From positions 1 to 64,000 of IMG/VR virus record IMGVR_UViG_3300032268_001483: a stretch of 64,000 nt of DNA. The stretch is one strand, 5' to 3'. Below, one piece after another: positions 13,827 through 55,731 of the stretch. A program made the translations under genes and the position numbers. Positions within the stretch are counted from its first letter, which is position 1, and each line of letters opens with the position of its first letter. The notes beneath the pieces are model-generated. The model made no database searches and had not been told where the DNA came from. It saw only the letters and a program-made list of their open reading frames with translations. Origin of the DNA: a virus.

Positions 13827-13856
13827 ATGGCTTTGCTAAAAAAACTTAAAGCTTGA
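13827..13856 (+). CDS. Nine-codon leader ORF (MALLKKLKA)
   Basis: ATG directly after the promoter element, nine codons, TGA at 13854, and the fibre ATG 11 bases later. It may be a leader peptide coupling translation, or the remnant of a gene start left after recombination of the fibre gene. Confidence 0.3.
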
Positions 13857-13867
13857 TATATAAAATT

Positions 13868-15352
<1,485 letters not shown>

Positions 15353-15393
15353 AAAAAACTTTAAAAAAATTATAAAGTTTGGAACAAAATCAA

Positions 15394-15401
15394 TATATTT
15401 G
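15394..15401 (+). promoter_or_regulatory. Possible host-type -7 box
   Basis: TATATTTG 26 bases before the ATG at 15427. A TTTG lies only 12 bases upstream of it, so the -33 element is poor. Supports the downstream start. Confidence 0.4.
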
Positions 15402-15426
15402 TAGTTTTAAAAACAAAAACTTATTT

Positions 15427-16716
15427 ATGATAAAGCCAGTAGAAATTGTAACAATCTCAAAATTAACACCTATCTTCAAAGATGGACAAGAAGCAAATTC
15501 AATCGCCGTTGCAAATTTCAACTTCGAAAACGGAGATGAATGCGCCTATAATGTAATCTGTCAAAAATCATTCTATAAAATCGGTGATAAGGCAATCTAT
15601 ATTCAACCTGATTACTGCCTAAGTGAACTCACAATTTTTGATAGCTTCACAAAACCAGAGGACAATCCAAAGAAATCTAAATTAGGTGCACACAACAGAA
15701 TTAGAGCAATCAAATTCAATTTCTCTTTCTCCGATAGTAGCGACCCTATTTACTCTTTTGGTATCTTAATGCCTATTTCTGAAGTTAAAGAATTCCTAGG
15801 TGATAATTATGATGATACCAATCTTGTTGACTTACTACAAATCAAGAAATTTGAAGAACCCGAAACAGGTGGATCTGGTTTGACTGCTGGTGACTTTCCA
15901 AGTTTTATGTATAAAACTGACGAAGAAAACTCCGCAAATCTAAAAACTAAAATCAGTCAACTTTGTGATGGTCAAACCGATATGGGATTCACTATCAAGA
16001 GAGATGGTTCTAGTATCACAGTCTACTTCAAAAGAGATGAAAATGATGAATGGACCTGGGGTGTTTGCTCAAGAACAATGGAAAAAAAGAAGGAACAATC
16101 TTATGTCAGCAAATATATTAGTGAAAGTATGACTTTGACTAAATATTTGAATAGTGAAACTAAAGAAATGGGTTGGTTTGATAATGAAACTAAAACTTTC
16201 TATACTCAATCCCAAGTTGATTCTCTTGTTGAGGGAGGTGAAGTTTTAGAAGAAAGAACTGAAGTTAAAGATTCTTGGATTGAATTAGCTAAGAATTCTG
16301 GACTTATTGAAAGAGGTATGAAATATTGCCAAGACAATAATGTTCAGTTAGCATTCAGAGGTGAGATTTACGGACAAGGTTTGAAAGGTTCTGGAAACAA
16401 ATTAAATCCAGACTCTAATGGAAAACAATCTATCTTAATTTTTGGTATAGATTCATTGGATGGTGGTTTTTCTCTTCGTCAAAACTATGGAGATAAACAT
16501 AACTTACAATGGGTTTGTGAGGCTATTGAAATCAACTATACCAAGTCTATTTGGGCGAGACCTACTTCTTATGAACACTTCGGACAAATTTGTGATGAGA
16601 TTATTAGTTTGGAAAAAACTTGTGGTAGAGTAATCGAAGGTGTTGTAGTTAGAACAAGATTTAGTAACAAACTTTCTTGTAAATGGATGAACTCAGAGTA
16701 TGATGCAAAAAAGTAA
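15427..16716 (+). CDS. RNA ligase, Rnl5-like
   Basis: About 429 residues from the ATG at 15427, chosen over an in-frame TTG at 15379 because a promoter box lies between them. An N-terminal OB-like region (residues 1-120) precedes a nucleotidyltransferase domain. Motif I is IKRDGSS with Lys191, motif III is RGEIYG with Glu313, motif IV is IEGVVVR at 403-409 and motif V is SCKWMN with Lys419. An N-terminal OB domain before the ligase core is the layout of the Rnl5 family. It probably seals RNA nicks, for example tRNAs cut by host defence nucleases. Confidence 0.85.
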   Translation: MIKPVEIVTISKLTPIFKDGQEANSIAVANFNFENGDECAYNVICQKSFYKIGDKAIYIQPDYCLSELTIFDSFTKPEDNPKKSKLGAHNRIRAIKFNFSFSDSSDPIYSFGILMPISEVKEFLGDNYDDTNLVDLLQIKKFEEPETGGSGLTAGDFPSFMYKTDEENSANLKTKISQLCDGQTDMGFTIKRDGSSITVYFKRDENDEWTWGVCSRTMEKKKEQSYVSKYISESMTLTKYLNSETKEMGWFDNETKTFYTQSQVDSLVEGGEVLEERTEVKDSWIELAKNSGLIERGMKYCQDNNVQLAFRGEIYGQGLKGSGNKLNPDSNGKQSILIFGIDSLDGGFSLRQNYGDKHNLQWVCEAIEINYTKSIWARPTSYEHFGQICDEIISLEKTCGRVIEGVVVRTRFSNKLSCKWMNSEYDAKK

Positions 16717-17161: not shown

Positions 17162-17378
17162 TGTAAAAGAAAGGTTACCTGACTGCACTTCTCAACATAG
17201 AAACCACTATGGTAGTGGATATCTACTTGGTTATACAAAGTATAATGAAGTAGAAATTACACAACTTTGGAAAGTATATACCGAAGATTCAGTGATATAT
17301 GAATGGGAAGGGCAAGATGGCGAAGATGATTATATTACACATTGGATGCCGATGCCGAAATCTCCACTAAAAGATTAG
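17148..17378 (+). CDS. DUF551 protein
   Basis: A 76-residue protein with the DUF551 signature: MEWISVKERLPD at the start and THWMPMPKSP at the end. DUF551 proteins are common in phages and their function is not known to me. The stop codon is inside a terminator hairpin. Confidence 0.8.
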   Translation: MEWISVKERLPDCTSQHRNHYGSGYLLGYTKYNEVEITQLWKVYTEDSVIYEWEGQDGEDDYITHWMPMPKSPLKD

Positions 17379-17390
17379 TGGAGATTTTTT
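17362..17390 (+). terminator. Intrinsic terminator
   Basis: CTCCACT (17362-17368) pairs with AGTGGAG (17377-17383), followed by six T. The T run merges with the promoter element of the next gene. Confidence 0.8.
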
Positions 17391-17398
17391 ATATATAG
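17385..17398 (+). promoter_or_regulatory. Phage-type promoter element, leaderless configuration
   Basis: TTTTTTATATATAG ends 4 bases before the ATG at 17403, so transcription would start at or next to the start codon. Confidence 0.6.
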
Positions 17399-17402
17399 AT
17401 TC

Positions 17403-18113
17403 ATGAAATATCTTAAAACATTTGAATCTCACTCAAATAATTATTTTGATTTAGACTTTTCGAAAATAGAAACCACTGATACAAGAGGGTATTACTCTAT
17501 ATTGGAAATTCTCAAAACTAAAGAATTAGACCTACAAGAATTTTTGAGTGATGTTCGTTTTAACCTACTTCAATTCGGTCTAATAACAGAATCAACTAAT
17601 TTTAAATTAATAGGTACTGGACAATATGGTATCGCCTTTTCATTCTATGACAAAGTTTTAAAAGTTACTACTTCCAAAAAAGAATTTGATACTTCTTATG
17701 AATTCATTGATATGGAATATGAAGGAGCTGTTAGATACTATTTAGCCTTTCAGTATTTGAATTTACCATTATGGATTATTATCCAAGATAAGTTGAGTAC
17801 ATTACCTAAAATGGAGAGAGATATTTATACAACACTCTATTATTTAGGGGCGAACGATATGGATAACCCTGAATTTAGTAGTGTAGAAGAGTTGATATCT
17901 GCACTACAAAGACGATTAAAAAATCCAAACGAAGAAGATGAGCTACCATCTTATGAAATTAGAAAGCGTGATTTAAGAGAATATTTTAGAAAATATTCTG
18001 AACTTAGAGATAAATTGATAGCAAATGGTATATCAGTAGATGATTTACACGGAGAAAATATTGGATTGAAAGATGGACAAATAGTTCACTTTGATATAAT
18101 GAAAGTTGATTAG
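17403..18113 (+). CDS. Tagged protein-kinase-like protein
   Basis: A 236-residue protein. The tag is MKYLKTFESH. A compact kinase-like fold follows: a glycine loop GTGQYGIAF at 71-79, a candidate ATP-binding Lys87 in KVLKVT, a catalytic-loop-like DDLHGENIG with Asp214, His216 and Asn219, and a metal-binding Asp231 in VHFD. The segment after Asp231 is very short, so there is almost no activation loop or C-lobe tail. This resembles small aminoglycoside-kinase or lipopolysaccharide-kinase-like phosphotransferases more than classic Ser/Thr kinases. With the tag, an injected kinase is plausible. Substrate unknown. Confidence 0.7.
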   Translation: MKYLKTFESHSNNYFDLDFSKIETTDTRGYYSILEILKTKELDLQEFLSDVRFNLLQFGLITESTNFKLIGTGQYGIAFSFYDKVLKVTTSKKEFDTSYEFIDMEYEGAVRYYLAFQYLNLPLWIIIQDKLSTLPKMERDIYTTLYYLGANDMDNPEFSSVEELISALQRRLKNPNEEDELPSYEIRKRDLREYFRKYSELRDKLIANGISVDDLHGENIGLKDGQIVHFDIMKVD

Positions 18114-18816: not shown

Positions 18817-18830
18817 TATATATTAAATTT
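18817..18830 (-). promoter_or_regulatory. Phage-type promoter element
   Basis: AAATTTAATATATA on the minus strand, followed by AAATAAAA and the ATG at 18801. Confidence 0.6.
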
Positions 18831-22087: not shown

Positions 22088-22099
22088 TTTTATATATAG
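22088..22099 (+). promoter_or_regulatory. Phage-type promoter element
   Basis: TTTTATATATAG followed by AAATAAAAG and the ATG at 22114. Confidence 0.55.
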
Positions 22100-25312: not shown

Positions 25313-26665
25313 TTATTTAAGTATGGTTATAATTTCTGTATACCATTCACAAACTTCTTCTATCTTTTCTGGATATCTAAATTGCGAAAGCACATATCTT
25401 ATCGCATTTAATCTACCAATCTTTTTATCATTCGAGTTAACAATTATCCAAGGAGCCTTCCTTGTCGATGTCTTATTAAACATTTGAATTTTATATTGAG
25501 TAATAAGGTCATATTTAGTAAGGACCTTAGCATCATTTGGCGAAAATTTCCAAAACTTAAGTGGACTAGTTTGTCTTAACTTAAATCTTTCTTTTTGCTT
25601 TTCTTCTGTTATAGAAAACCACAATTTTATCAAATGTATACCAGAATCAATTAAGGAAGCTTCCCAATCATTTACACCTTCCATAAAAGTCATATATTCT
25701 TCTTCAGTACAATAACCATTTACTGGCTCAACTACTGCTCTGTTGTACCAACTTCTATCAAAGAAAACAATTTCTCCTTCTTTTGGCATGTATTGTTCAT
25801 ATCTTCCGAACCAATTTGCTCTTTCTTCTGGTGTTGGAATCGGTAAACCAGCTACAATTCTCGATACTCCAGGTATCCCAAAAGTAGTAAATCTTTTAAT
25901 AGCTGAACCTTTACCGGCAGCATCTCTACCTTCGAAGACAATAGCTAATTTTTGTTTTTTAGCACCTGGAACAATTTCAAATTGATAGATTTGAGTAGTG
26001 TCTAAACCTTCAACTTCCTTTAAAAATCTACGACGAGTACCTTCACCTGGACTCGTATTTTTACCCAATGCTCTTTGTTCTTGTTGCCAATCCTTTATTT
26101 TTTGTCTATATGCCTCATTAGCTTGAGAAGTTTTAACCCTTCTCCCTCCCTTAACCCAACATTGTAGTTTGATTAGTTCATCTTGTAAGGCTTCTTCTTC
26201 AGGATTATAAACGGAAGCTTTTATTAGGGAAGCTTCTCCTTCTTCAATATCAAAGTGTTCCCATTCTTGTCCACGCACACCACCTTGACTAATTTTGTCT
26301 ACACGTTCATCTAAATTGTCTAAATAATCAGAAAACTCTCTCTTAATAAGTTTAGCTGTATCTTTTCTTTGAAAGTCCAAGATGTGACTAATCTTAACGA
26401 GGAAAGTTTTCAAATTTAAATCAATTACTACATCCCTACCGAATTCTGATTCTAATTCAGATAATACATCAATAAAAGTAAAAATTGATTCGTCTTTATA
26501 CTTGACACTATCTGATTTCTGTATAATGTTATCAAGAATTTGATTCTTGTAACTTAGAAATTTTGAGCGCAAATTGACTTTTAAGTCCTCTATGTTTTGA
26601 GGTTGCATTTCCTCAATTCTGAGCTCTTCGTTGATAAATCTGATATAATCTAATAATCTTTTCAT
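25313..26665 (-). CDS. ppk2: Tagged polyphosphate kinase 2 (PPK2)
   Basis: A 450-residue protein. Residues about 165-440 are a PPK2 domain: Walker A GRDAAGKG at 246-253, the lid-type RRVKTSQANEAY region before it, FDRSWYNR at 302-309 and WKFSPNDAK near the end. PPK2 transfers phosphate between polyphosphate and nucleotides. The N-terminal extension of 150 residues is absent from ordinary PPK2 and starts MKRLLDYIRFINEEL, a CTS-like tag ending in I-N-E. So the enzyme may be packaged and delivered to regenerate NTPs at the start of infection. A phage-type promoter in leaderless position precedes it. Confidence 0.9.
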   Translation of the reverse strand: MKRLLDYIRFINEELRIEEMQPQNIEDLKVNLRSKFLSYKNQILDNIIQKSDSVKYKDESIFTFIDVLSELESEFGRDVVIDLNLKTFLVKISHILDFQRKDTAKLIKREFSDYLDNLDERVDKISQGGVRGQEWEHFDIEEGEASLIKASVYNPEEEALQDELIKLQCWVKGGRRVKTSQANEAYRQKIKDWQQEQRALGKNTSPGEGTRRRFLKEVEGLDTTQIYQFEIVPGAKKQKLAIVFEGRDAAGKGSAIKRFTTFGIPGVSRIVAGLPIPTPEERANWFGRYEQYMPKEGEIVFFDRSWYNRAVVEPVNGYCTEEEYMTFMEGVNDWEASLIDSGIHLIKLWFSITEEKQKERFKLRQTSPLKFWKFSPNDAKVLTKYDLITQYKIQMFNKTSTRKAPWIIVNSNDKKIGRLNAIRYVLSQFRYPEKIEEVCEWYTEIITILK

Positions 26666-32530: not shown

Positions 32531-32543
32531 TATATATTAAAAA
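32531..32543 (-). promoter_or_regulatory. Phage-type promoter element
   Basis: TTTTTAATATATA followed by CAATAAAATAAACC and the ATG at 32510. Confidence 0.6.
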
Positions 32544-46286: not shown

Positions 46287-46302
46287 TTTTTTAATATATA
46301 CT
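46287..46302 (+). promoter_or_regulatory. Phage-type promoter element, near-leaderless
   Basis: TTTTTTAATATATACT ends 5 bases before the ATG at 46308. Confidence 0.6.
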
Positions 46303-54975: not shown

Positions 54976-55731
54976 TTACTTTAACAATTTTATTATTTGA
55001 TTTATAATTGCCGATTTACTTCTTCTTGCATCAGTTTTTGTAAATACTTCTATGATATTATCAGTTAAACTTCTATTGATTTTATCATGACTTTTCGTAT
55101 AGTAATTTTTATATTTAGTCCAGCCCTCTGCCCAATGTGTACCACCTTTTACTTGGTCACCAAGTTTTTTTACTGTTTTCTTAGGTATATCAGTCCGTTT
55201 TAATTTACCACCACTACCACCAATCATAGCTTCTACTAACTCTATCAACCTCCTCTTTTTTGATTCAGAAAACTCACAATCTTCACTTTTCAAATCTTTT
55301 AATATTTGTTCCAAAGGTTTTATCCCATGATAATCAATTCTTCTTTCATGTGACTTCTTCAATAGTTCTTGACTTTTCTCAAAGTCATTTGATGGTACAA
55401 GGACAAAAACATTTTTATAATCCTTAATTAATTTTTTTACATCACCTTGATAGATGTGTCCTCCACCGAAATCTAATATACTCGGTTTATTATATTTTTC
55501 AAAATCTTCTGATAGAACATGCTCCACACATTTGATTTCATTTTCGTTACCATACCCGAAATCTGGTTGTAGTCTATCTAAAGATATTACTTCTAAACCA
55601 AGTTTTTCACCTAATTCTTTTGAAATAGTTGATTTTCCAATAGTTGGCGCACCTAAAAGAATAATTCTATCTTTTTGGCAATATTTCTGATTTTTTGACT
55701 CAAATACTCTGTATGATTGTAAATATTTCAT
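54976..55731 (-). CDS. Tagged P-loop kinase, shikimate-kinase-like
   Basis: A 251-residue protein. MKYLQSYRVFESKN is the tag. Then RIILLGAPTIGKSTISKEL with Walker A GAPTIGKS at 27-34, an EVISLDRLQPDFGYG segment and KYNKPSILDFGGGHIYQGD, the order of motifs seen in shikimate and other small-molecule kinases. The C-terminal part is Lys-rich with KGGTHWAEGWTKYKNYYTKSHDK. Substrate unknown. It has no gap to the downstream DUF3008-like gene. Confidence 0.7.
   Translation of the reverse strand: MKYLQSYRVFESKNQKYCQKDRIILLGAPTIGKSTISKELGEKLGLEVISLDRLQPDFGYGNENEIKCVEHVLSEDFEKYNKPSILDFGGGHIYQGDVKKLIKDYKNVFVLVPSNDFEKSQELLKKSHERRIDYHGIKPLEQILKDLKSEDCEFSESKKRRLIELVEAMIGGSGGKLKRTDIPKKTVKKLGDQVKGGTHWAEGWTKYKNYYTKSHDKINRSLTDNIIEVFTKTDARRSKSAIINQIIKLLK

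Follow-up and report, generated by a model that had tools for sequence, protein, structure and literature searches.

A short kinase-like protein with an exchangeable N-terminal tag in an uncultured phage

What does a protein of 236 residues with the marks of a kinase do for a phage, and is it made in the infected cell or carried into it by the virion? This question is raised by a gene in the window, i.e., the whole stretch of 64,000 nucleotides that was analysed (positions 1 to 64,000 of IMG/VR record IMGVR_UViG_3300032268_001483), which has a G+C content of 30% and comes from an incomplete virus record of 117,129 bases, where the gene is present as a single copy. Given the low G+C content and the TonB-receptor-like neighbour in three of the relatives (L016-L018), the host of the phage is probably a member of the Bacteroidota. 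Our reading, to which we give a probability of roughly 0.5 on the basis of sequence, structural models and analogy, is that the protein is an active minimal phosphotransferase bearing a tag of the type of the T4 capsid targeting sequence (CTS), which would be packed in the virion, injected and would then phosphorylate host proteins.

The tag, the glycine loop, Lys87, the H-x-E-N loop and Asp231, with five residues left after it, all named in a first-pass annotation of this DNA, are present where that annotation had placed them. The features of the gene and of the domain that it encodes are as follows.

17403..18113, + strand: minimal kinase-like protein, whole open reading frame, 236 residues, intact (relatives and dN/dS)
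17448..17582, + strand: helical segment preceding the N-lobe, residues 16-60 (helices 28-38 and 44-57 in the model)
17613..17630, + strand: glycine-rich loop G71-TGQY-G76, flanked by strands 68-72 and 76-81 (sequence, alignment, model)
17661..17663, + strand: Lys87, the ATP-positioning lysine in the third strand (84-89), invariant (alignment, model)
17682..17684, + strand: Glu94, invariant, at the start of helix 92-100 after Lys87, a candidate salt-bridge partner (alignment, model)
17787..17789, + strand: Asp129, invariant, at the end of the hinge strand (124-129) (alignment, model)
17808..17939, + strand: family-specific two-helix segment from the hinge to the catalytic loop, residues 136-179 (alignment, model)
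18042..18065, + strand: catalytic loop D214-L-H-G-E-N219-I-G221, in register with FDMHSGNIM of T7 gp0.7 (sequence, alignment)
18093..18095, + strand: Asp231, the metal-binding Asp of the DFG type, followed by five residues only (sequence, alignment)

The glycine loop and Lys87, the latter sitting in VLKVT, lie on adjacent strands of the N-lobe, and the catalytic Asp, the Asn and the metal Asp are spaced as in the kinase superfamily, with 5 residues from D214 to N219 and 17 from D214 to D231. The two-helix segment carries the motifs DIYTT and RLxNPxxED, and F230-D231 stands near the C-terminus, the protein ending in HFDIMKVD with residue 236 as the last. The His and Arg of the HRD motif are not kept, the corresponding residues being V212-D213-D214, and the activation segment with APE and helices F-I are absent from this protein and from all its relatives, which stop after the Asp. 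In most protein kinases the activation segment and helices F-I serve in holding the substrates. The protein is thus not a member of a classical protein kinase family; its version of the kinase fold is unusually short, whether or not the protein is packaged.

The kinase-like fold put forward in the first-pass annotation is also what structure prediction returns. The AlphaFold2 model of the window protein, made with a small family alignment, is a confident kinase fold (pLDDT 84.7, pTM 0.80) in which pLDDT falls below 50 solely at residues 1-15, i.e., in the tag, and a second prediction, led by the relative L012, gives a pLDDT of 79.1 and a pTM of 0.72. Foldseek finds GCN2, ASK1 and APH(4) at E ~4e-4, and the PDB matches listed for both models are only protein kinases and aminoglycoside phosphotransferases. 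The window model is aligned with PKR (6d3k) at Z 9.3 (143 residues, 3.4 A), with HIPK2 at Z 8.9 (149 residues, 3.6 A), with CDKL1 at Z 8.6 (132 residues, 3.5 A) and with APH(2'')-IVa at Z 8.1 (148 residues, 3.2 A), while the L012 model is aligned with PKR 6d3k at Z 9.4 (143 residues, 3.6 A) and with APH(4)-Ia at Z 9.3 (137 residues, 3.5 A); Z values of 8-9 are modest when taken alone, and for these predicted models the listed matches all belong to one superfamily and the alignments span the whole domain. In the PKR alignments of both models, the last model residue falls a few residues beyond the DFG/DxD Asp of the target. In BFVD the top matches are uncultured phage proteins (E 6e-11, 25% identity), followed by T7-type kinases at E 3.7e-6 and weaker. 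On the evidence of sequence and prediction, the protein very probably contains a kinase-like domain.

Relatives were found through DNA patterns of the catalytic loop, DLHGENIG and then a longer version, on seven other phage contigs, which give six distinct sequences (two being identical) with 32-40% identity to the window protein. Single-sequence searches with the protein gave no relatives among viral contigs or phage records, profile searches returned the same seven contigs and none further, and the pattern search, within its limits, gave no relative in 84,980 bacterial and archaeal species genomes. In the alignment of the eight sequences (A2), 49 columns are invariant, including all the expected kinase active-site residues, and G71, G73, G76, K84, K87, D129, D214, L215, H216, G217, N219, G221, H229, F230 and D231 are the same in 8/8. 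The Lys and Asp residues on which the first-pass annotation had built its proposal are therefore kept throughout, and its further remark that the protein lacks a C-terminal extension applies to the family as a whole. Neither of the two outcomes that it had named as refuting, a confident model without a kinase fold and relatives devoid of these residues, was thus obtained. All the relatives stop four residues past the equivalent of Asp231, with endings HFDVMAF or HFDVMDF; as every one of them ends at the equivalent Asp, the short C-terminus characterises the family, and a frameshift or truncation as its source is rejected. Moreover, dN/dS among close relatives is 0.08-0.21, indicating purifying selection, which argues that the protein is functional. 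It is also noted that two relatives (L013:2683-3750 and L014:2619-3686, both on the - strand) have about 100 extra residues between their tag, MRNLIRRILREE, and the kinase domain, for which no family was found.

Known protein families add little to this. Pfam, including Pkinase, gives no match to the protein at E <= 10, NCBIfam gives nothing meaningful, and a profile search of PDB sequences gives weak matches to the glycine loop only. Among PHROGs, the best match is phrog_4301, a family annotated as of unknown function (E 2.5e-4, residues 60-231), the others being weaker; the match to phrog_15752, the T7 kinase, is weak (E 0.08) and covers residues 64-99 only. A tblastn match to the mycobacteriophage 'kinase' gp15 at E 9, in register and confined to the catalytic loop, proves little. 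That the protein belongs to a known defence system is rejected, PADLOC giving none.

The closest characterised protein in profile comparison is T7 gp0.7. With hhalign, E is 3e-5 with the single sequence, 7e-4 with the seven-member profile and 8e-5 when the comparison was repeated under different settings, as compared with 0.014 for the best of 40 column-shuffled controls and 0.44 for the reversed one. The alignments are in register over about 80-157 columns, pairing glycine loop with glycine loop, VLKV with VIKV, PGIVNYYD of the relatives with PGIPNVYD, and GISVDDLHGENI with GIASFDMHSGNI. The sequences thus appear to be homologous beyond chance, and only distantly so. T7 gp0.7 is a Ser/Thr kinase whose targets include host RNA polymerase beta', RNase III, RNase E and translation factors (PMC4858673). 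Based on the match to gp0.7, protein phosphorylation is the likelier chemistry despite the distance of the homology, and we moderately favour a protein over a small molecule as the substrate.

The N-terminus is considered next.

17403..17447, + strand: N-terminal tag and disordered leader, residues 1-15 (MKYLKTFESHSNNYF) (model disorder, tag statistics)

Residues 1-8 read MKYLKTFE, with Leu4 and Phe7 at the two positions on which targeting in T4 chiefly depends, and this tag is common to about 30 other proteins of the phage. A wider tag pattern is found in 34 of the 146 open reading frames of the record as compared with 3.7 +/- 1.9 in shuffles; this pattern was built after the tags had been seen, and hence a simpler test on positions 4 and 7 was added, in which [LIMV]4 with [FYW]7 is found in 22 of the 50 reading frames that start with MK or MR versus 1.6 expected from internal windows. 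One of these 22 resembles a signal peptide. At position 10 the kinase tag has His, versus Phe in 20/34 tagged reading frames. The N-termini of the relatives differ (MKIIITESQYKILNEQ, MTNRTIIKQILNQFLTEQ, MKLHEQINRIQEMM and, as mentioned above, the tag of L013 and L014), and the genes neighbouring the relatives bear the same kinds of N-termini, each tag type recurring there. The clearest case is that of the relatives L002 and L003, where only 5/18 residues are identical in the tag versus 235/265 (89%) in the body. At the level of sequence, the tag is thus a separate, swappable module, and since it changes as a unit with the enzyme unchanged, it is best explained as a sorting signal, a role that we consider probable.

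Similar N-termini are seen on other putative enzymes. The protein encoded at 25313-26665 (- strand) of the window has a polyphosphate kinase 2 domain (PPK2, E 4.4e-66) and begins with MKRLLDYIRFINEE, in agreement with the tag pattern, so that it is possibly a packaged polyphosphate/nucleotide kinase. At 54976-55731 (- strand), the tag MKYLQSYRVFES is followed by a Walker A of the P-loop kinase type (SKI, E 5.8e-5, profile positions 3-26), so that, as judged from its sequence, the product is one more small kinase with a tag, built on a different fold. At 55-639 of L024 (104055-104639 of the record, + strand), the tag MRYIKPFKIFESST is followed by LYHGN, a start that by eye looks like that of an ADP-ribosyltransferase, with no match in Pfam or PHROG. 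An uncultured phage of 634,780 bases (LR745206.1, L035) has, near a tag match, genes that start with MKYLKTFENYRIVEA, MKHIKKYNEA, MKYLKAYKIFES and MKHLKIFEKF, and this huge phage appears to have the same tag system.

The reading that the kinase is delivered comes from the resemblance of its tag to the T4 CTS. The latter has 10 residues, among which 4 and 7 account for most of the targeting, and 8 and 10 for processing; T4 packs and ejects CTS cargo, including the host-modifying enzyme Alt, and fusions to the CTS are packed and delivered as well (PMC9026906). When the tag is used as a query, the best-annotated matches are internal virion proteins of T4-like phages at E ~5, which is not significant; among those reached by these non-significant matches are the internal virion protein gp71 (MKTYEDFINEA) and the internal head protein gp70.1 (MKTYEEFINES) of the T4-like phage S16. 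Unlike the T4 CTS, the kinase tag has T-F-E, without a clear (L/I)xE cleavage site; several other tags of the record have L-F-E. No match to the Pfam models of the T4 prohead protease (PF03420) and gp23 was found in the 8 records, which are possibly all fragments. Judged by sequence features, the kinase tag thus shares some, not all, of the properties of the CTS, and of the delivery tag claimed in the first-pass annotation the modular tag stands, by the swap between L002 and L003, while the link to T4-type delivery stands only in part, as no clear cleavage site and no match to the T4 protease and capsid models were found in these records. By analogy with T4, we consider the chance of packaging and injection to be slightly better than even.

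Whether the timing of expression bears on this can be seen from the region upstream.

17357..17388, + strand: hairpin resembling a terminator, belonging to the upstream gene and lying immediately ahead of the kinase gene
17387..17397, + strand: TTTTATATATA, a copy of TTTWATATATA, 5 bp upstream of the ATG (motif counts)

The hairpin overlaps the motif copy. The motif occurs in 20 copies in the window versus 1.04 expected, and 36 of the 38 copies of the record lie 4-74 bp ahead of the start of a reading frame on the same strand, so that it appears to be a phage-wide promoter-like motif. It precedes the tail-tube and head-tail-adaptor genes, and also non-structural genes, including one whose sequence was recognised by eye as RecA-like; as it stands before the RecA-like gene, it is compatible with early as well as with late expression. 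The idea that tagged genes have a promoter class of their own is rejected, for the motif is found before untagged genes as well. Further copies in the window are at 18817-18827, 22088-22098, 32531-32541 and 46290-46300. The distances to the start are mostly either 4-7 bp or 15-28 bp, and if the motif is a -10 box, the mRNAs of the genes with the shorter distance would be leaderless. Note also that upstream of this region a gene for a 499-residue protein with long collagen-like Gly-x-y repeats (13853-15352, + strand) adjoins an RNA-ligase-like gene (15379-16716; PF09414, E 4.7e-5, below the curated cut-off).

We now describe how the protein would work. It would consist of two modules, with the first ~15 residues being a packaging tag and residues ~28-236 a kinase domain cut to the essentials. 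The tag would pull the kinase into the prohead, the virion would carry it, and the kinase would enter the host along with the DNA, where at the start of infection it would move the gamma-phosphate of ATP onto host proteins. It is noted that in this scheme packaging, injection and the protein substrate are what we infer.

Another scenario is that the protein is a gp0.7-like protein kinase that is made in the infected cell and is not packaged, with the leader having another role, such as localisation in the infected cell or stability, or being simply inherited. The early expression of T7 gp0.7, the closest characterised relative, is in line with this, as are the missing T4-type protease and capsid gene in the 8 possibly fragmentary records and the occurrence of the promoter-like motif ahead of the RecA-like and non-structural genes, by which late expression is unproven. 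However, a tag that is common to about 30 proteins and is swapped between close relatives implies a sorting function, and its residues 4 and 7 follow the pattern of the T4 CTS. We consider this scenario unlikely, albeit one to be taken seriously.

Returning to the active, protein-directed kinase of our reading, its chemistry could alternatively be that of an aminoglycoside-phosphotransferase-type enzyme acting on a nucleotide, a sugar or another metabolite. The scores of APH(2'')-IVa and, with the L012 model, APH(4)-Ia are near those of the protein kinases, a helical segment lies between the hinge and the catalytic loop, and the domain is without an activation segment of the eukaryotic type and without helices F-I after Asp231. 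Against this, the C-terminal helical subdomain that completes the substrate pocket of APH enzymes is absent, and the nearest sequence relative of known activity, T7 gp0.7, phosphorylates proteins, which makes a metabolite kinase rather improbable. That the protein is a pseudokinase or a nucleotide-binding scaffold without transfer activity, as the stop right past Asp231 and the loss of the HRD His/Arg (V212-D213-D214) might indicate, is very improbable, for K87, D214, N219 and D231, the residues for ATP, Mg and transfer, are invariant in the 8 sequences, whereas pseudokinases usually lose one or more of the catalytic residues.

If the protein is packaged as we propose, it would be a head-delivered bacteriophage kinase, a kinase counterpart of T4 Alt, no case of a virion-packaged phage kinase having been found in the literature searched, and the swapping of tags would let this phage group re-route the same enzyme. 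More tentatively, the family could be a new one of virion-delivered phage kinases, made of an N-lobe and a catalytic loop with exchangeable head-packaging tags, where the injected kinase would phosphorylate proteins of the bacterium ahead of all phage gene expression and where the phage group would package whole sets of tagged enzymes. The tag, with its 4/7 pattern and several interchangeable types, offers a handle for listing proteins that are likely to be injected by large uncultured phages, probably infecting Bacteroidota.

Finally, we compare the protein with known systems. Like APH(2'') and APH(4), it has a kinase-like N-lobe and catalytic core (Z 8-9); unlike them, it has no C-terminal helical substrate-binding subdomain after the Asp, with nothing beyond residue 236. 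Like the bacterial minimal effector kinases HopBF1 and OspG/NleH, which are delivered into the eukaryotic host cell by type III secretion, it has a very small kinase fold (PMC9950578); no sequence relation to HopBF1/OspG was seen, and they are absent among the structural matches listed. With the N-terminal ~30 kDa domain of T7 gp0.7 (phrog_15752), it shares being phage-encoded and divergent, the glycine loop, the Lys, the D-x-H-x-x-N loop and the short stretch from the catalytic loop to the metal Asp, and a gp0.7 relative in Klebsiella phage phi1_146013 likewise ends soon after the Asp. By contrast, gp0.7 is untagged, reads ITDPVS around its metal Asp and bears a C-terminal host-shutoff domain, whereas the present family reads HFD[IV]M there, carries DIYTT and RLxNPxxED in its two-helix segment and stops four or five residues past the metal Asp. 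As in the CTS cargo of T4 (IPI-III and Alt), a short N-terminal module is found on many otherwise unrelated proteins, with a hydrophobic or aromatic residue at position 4 and an aromatic one at position 7; Alt itself, unlike the present protein, is an ADP-ribosyltransferase. In our reading, the protein would thus combine delivery as in T4 Alt with chemistry as in T7 gp0.7.
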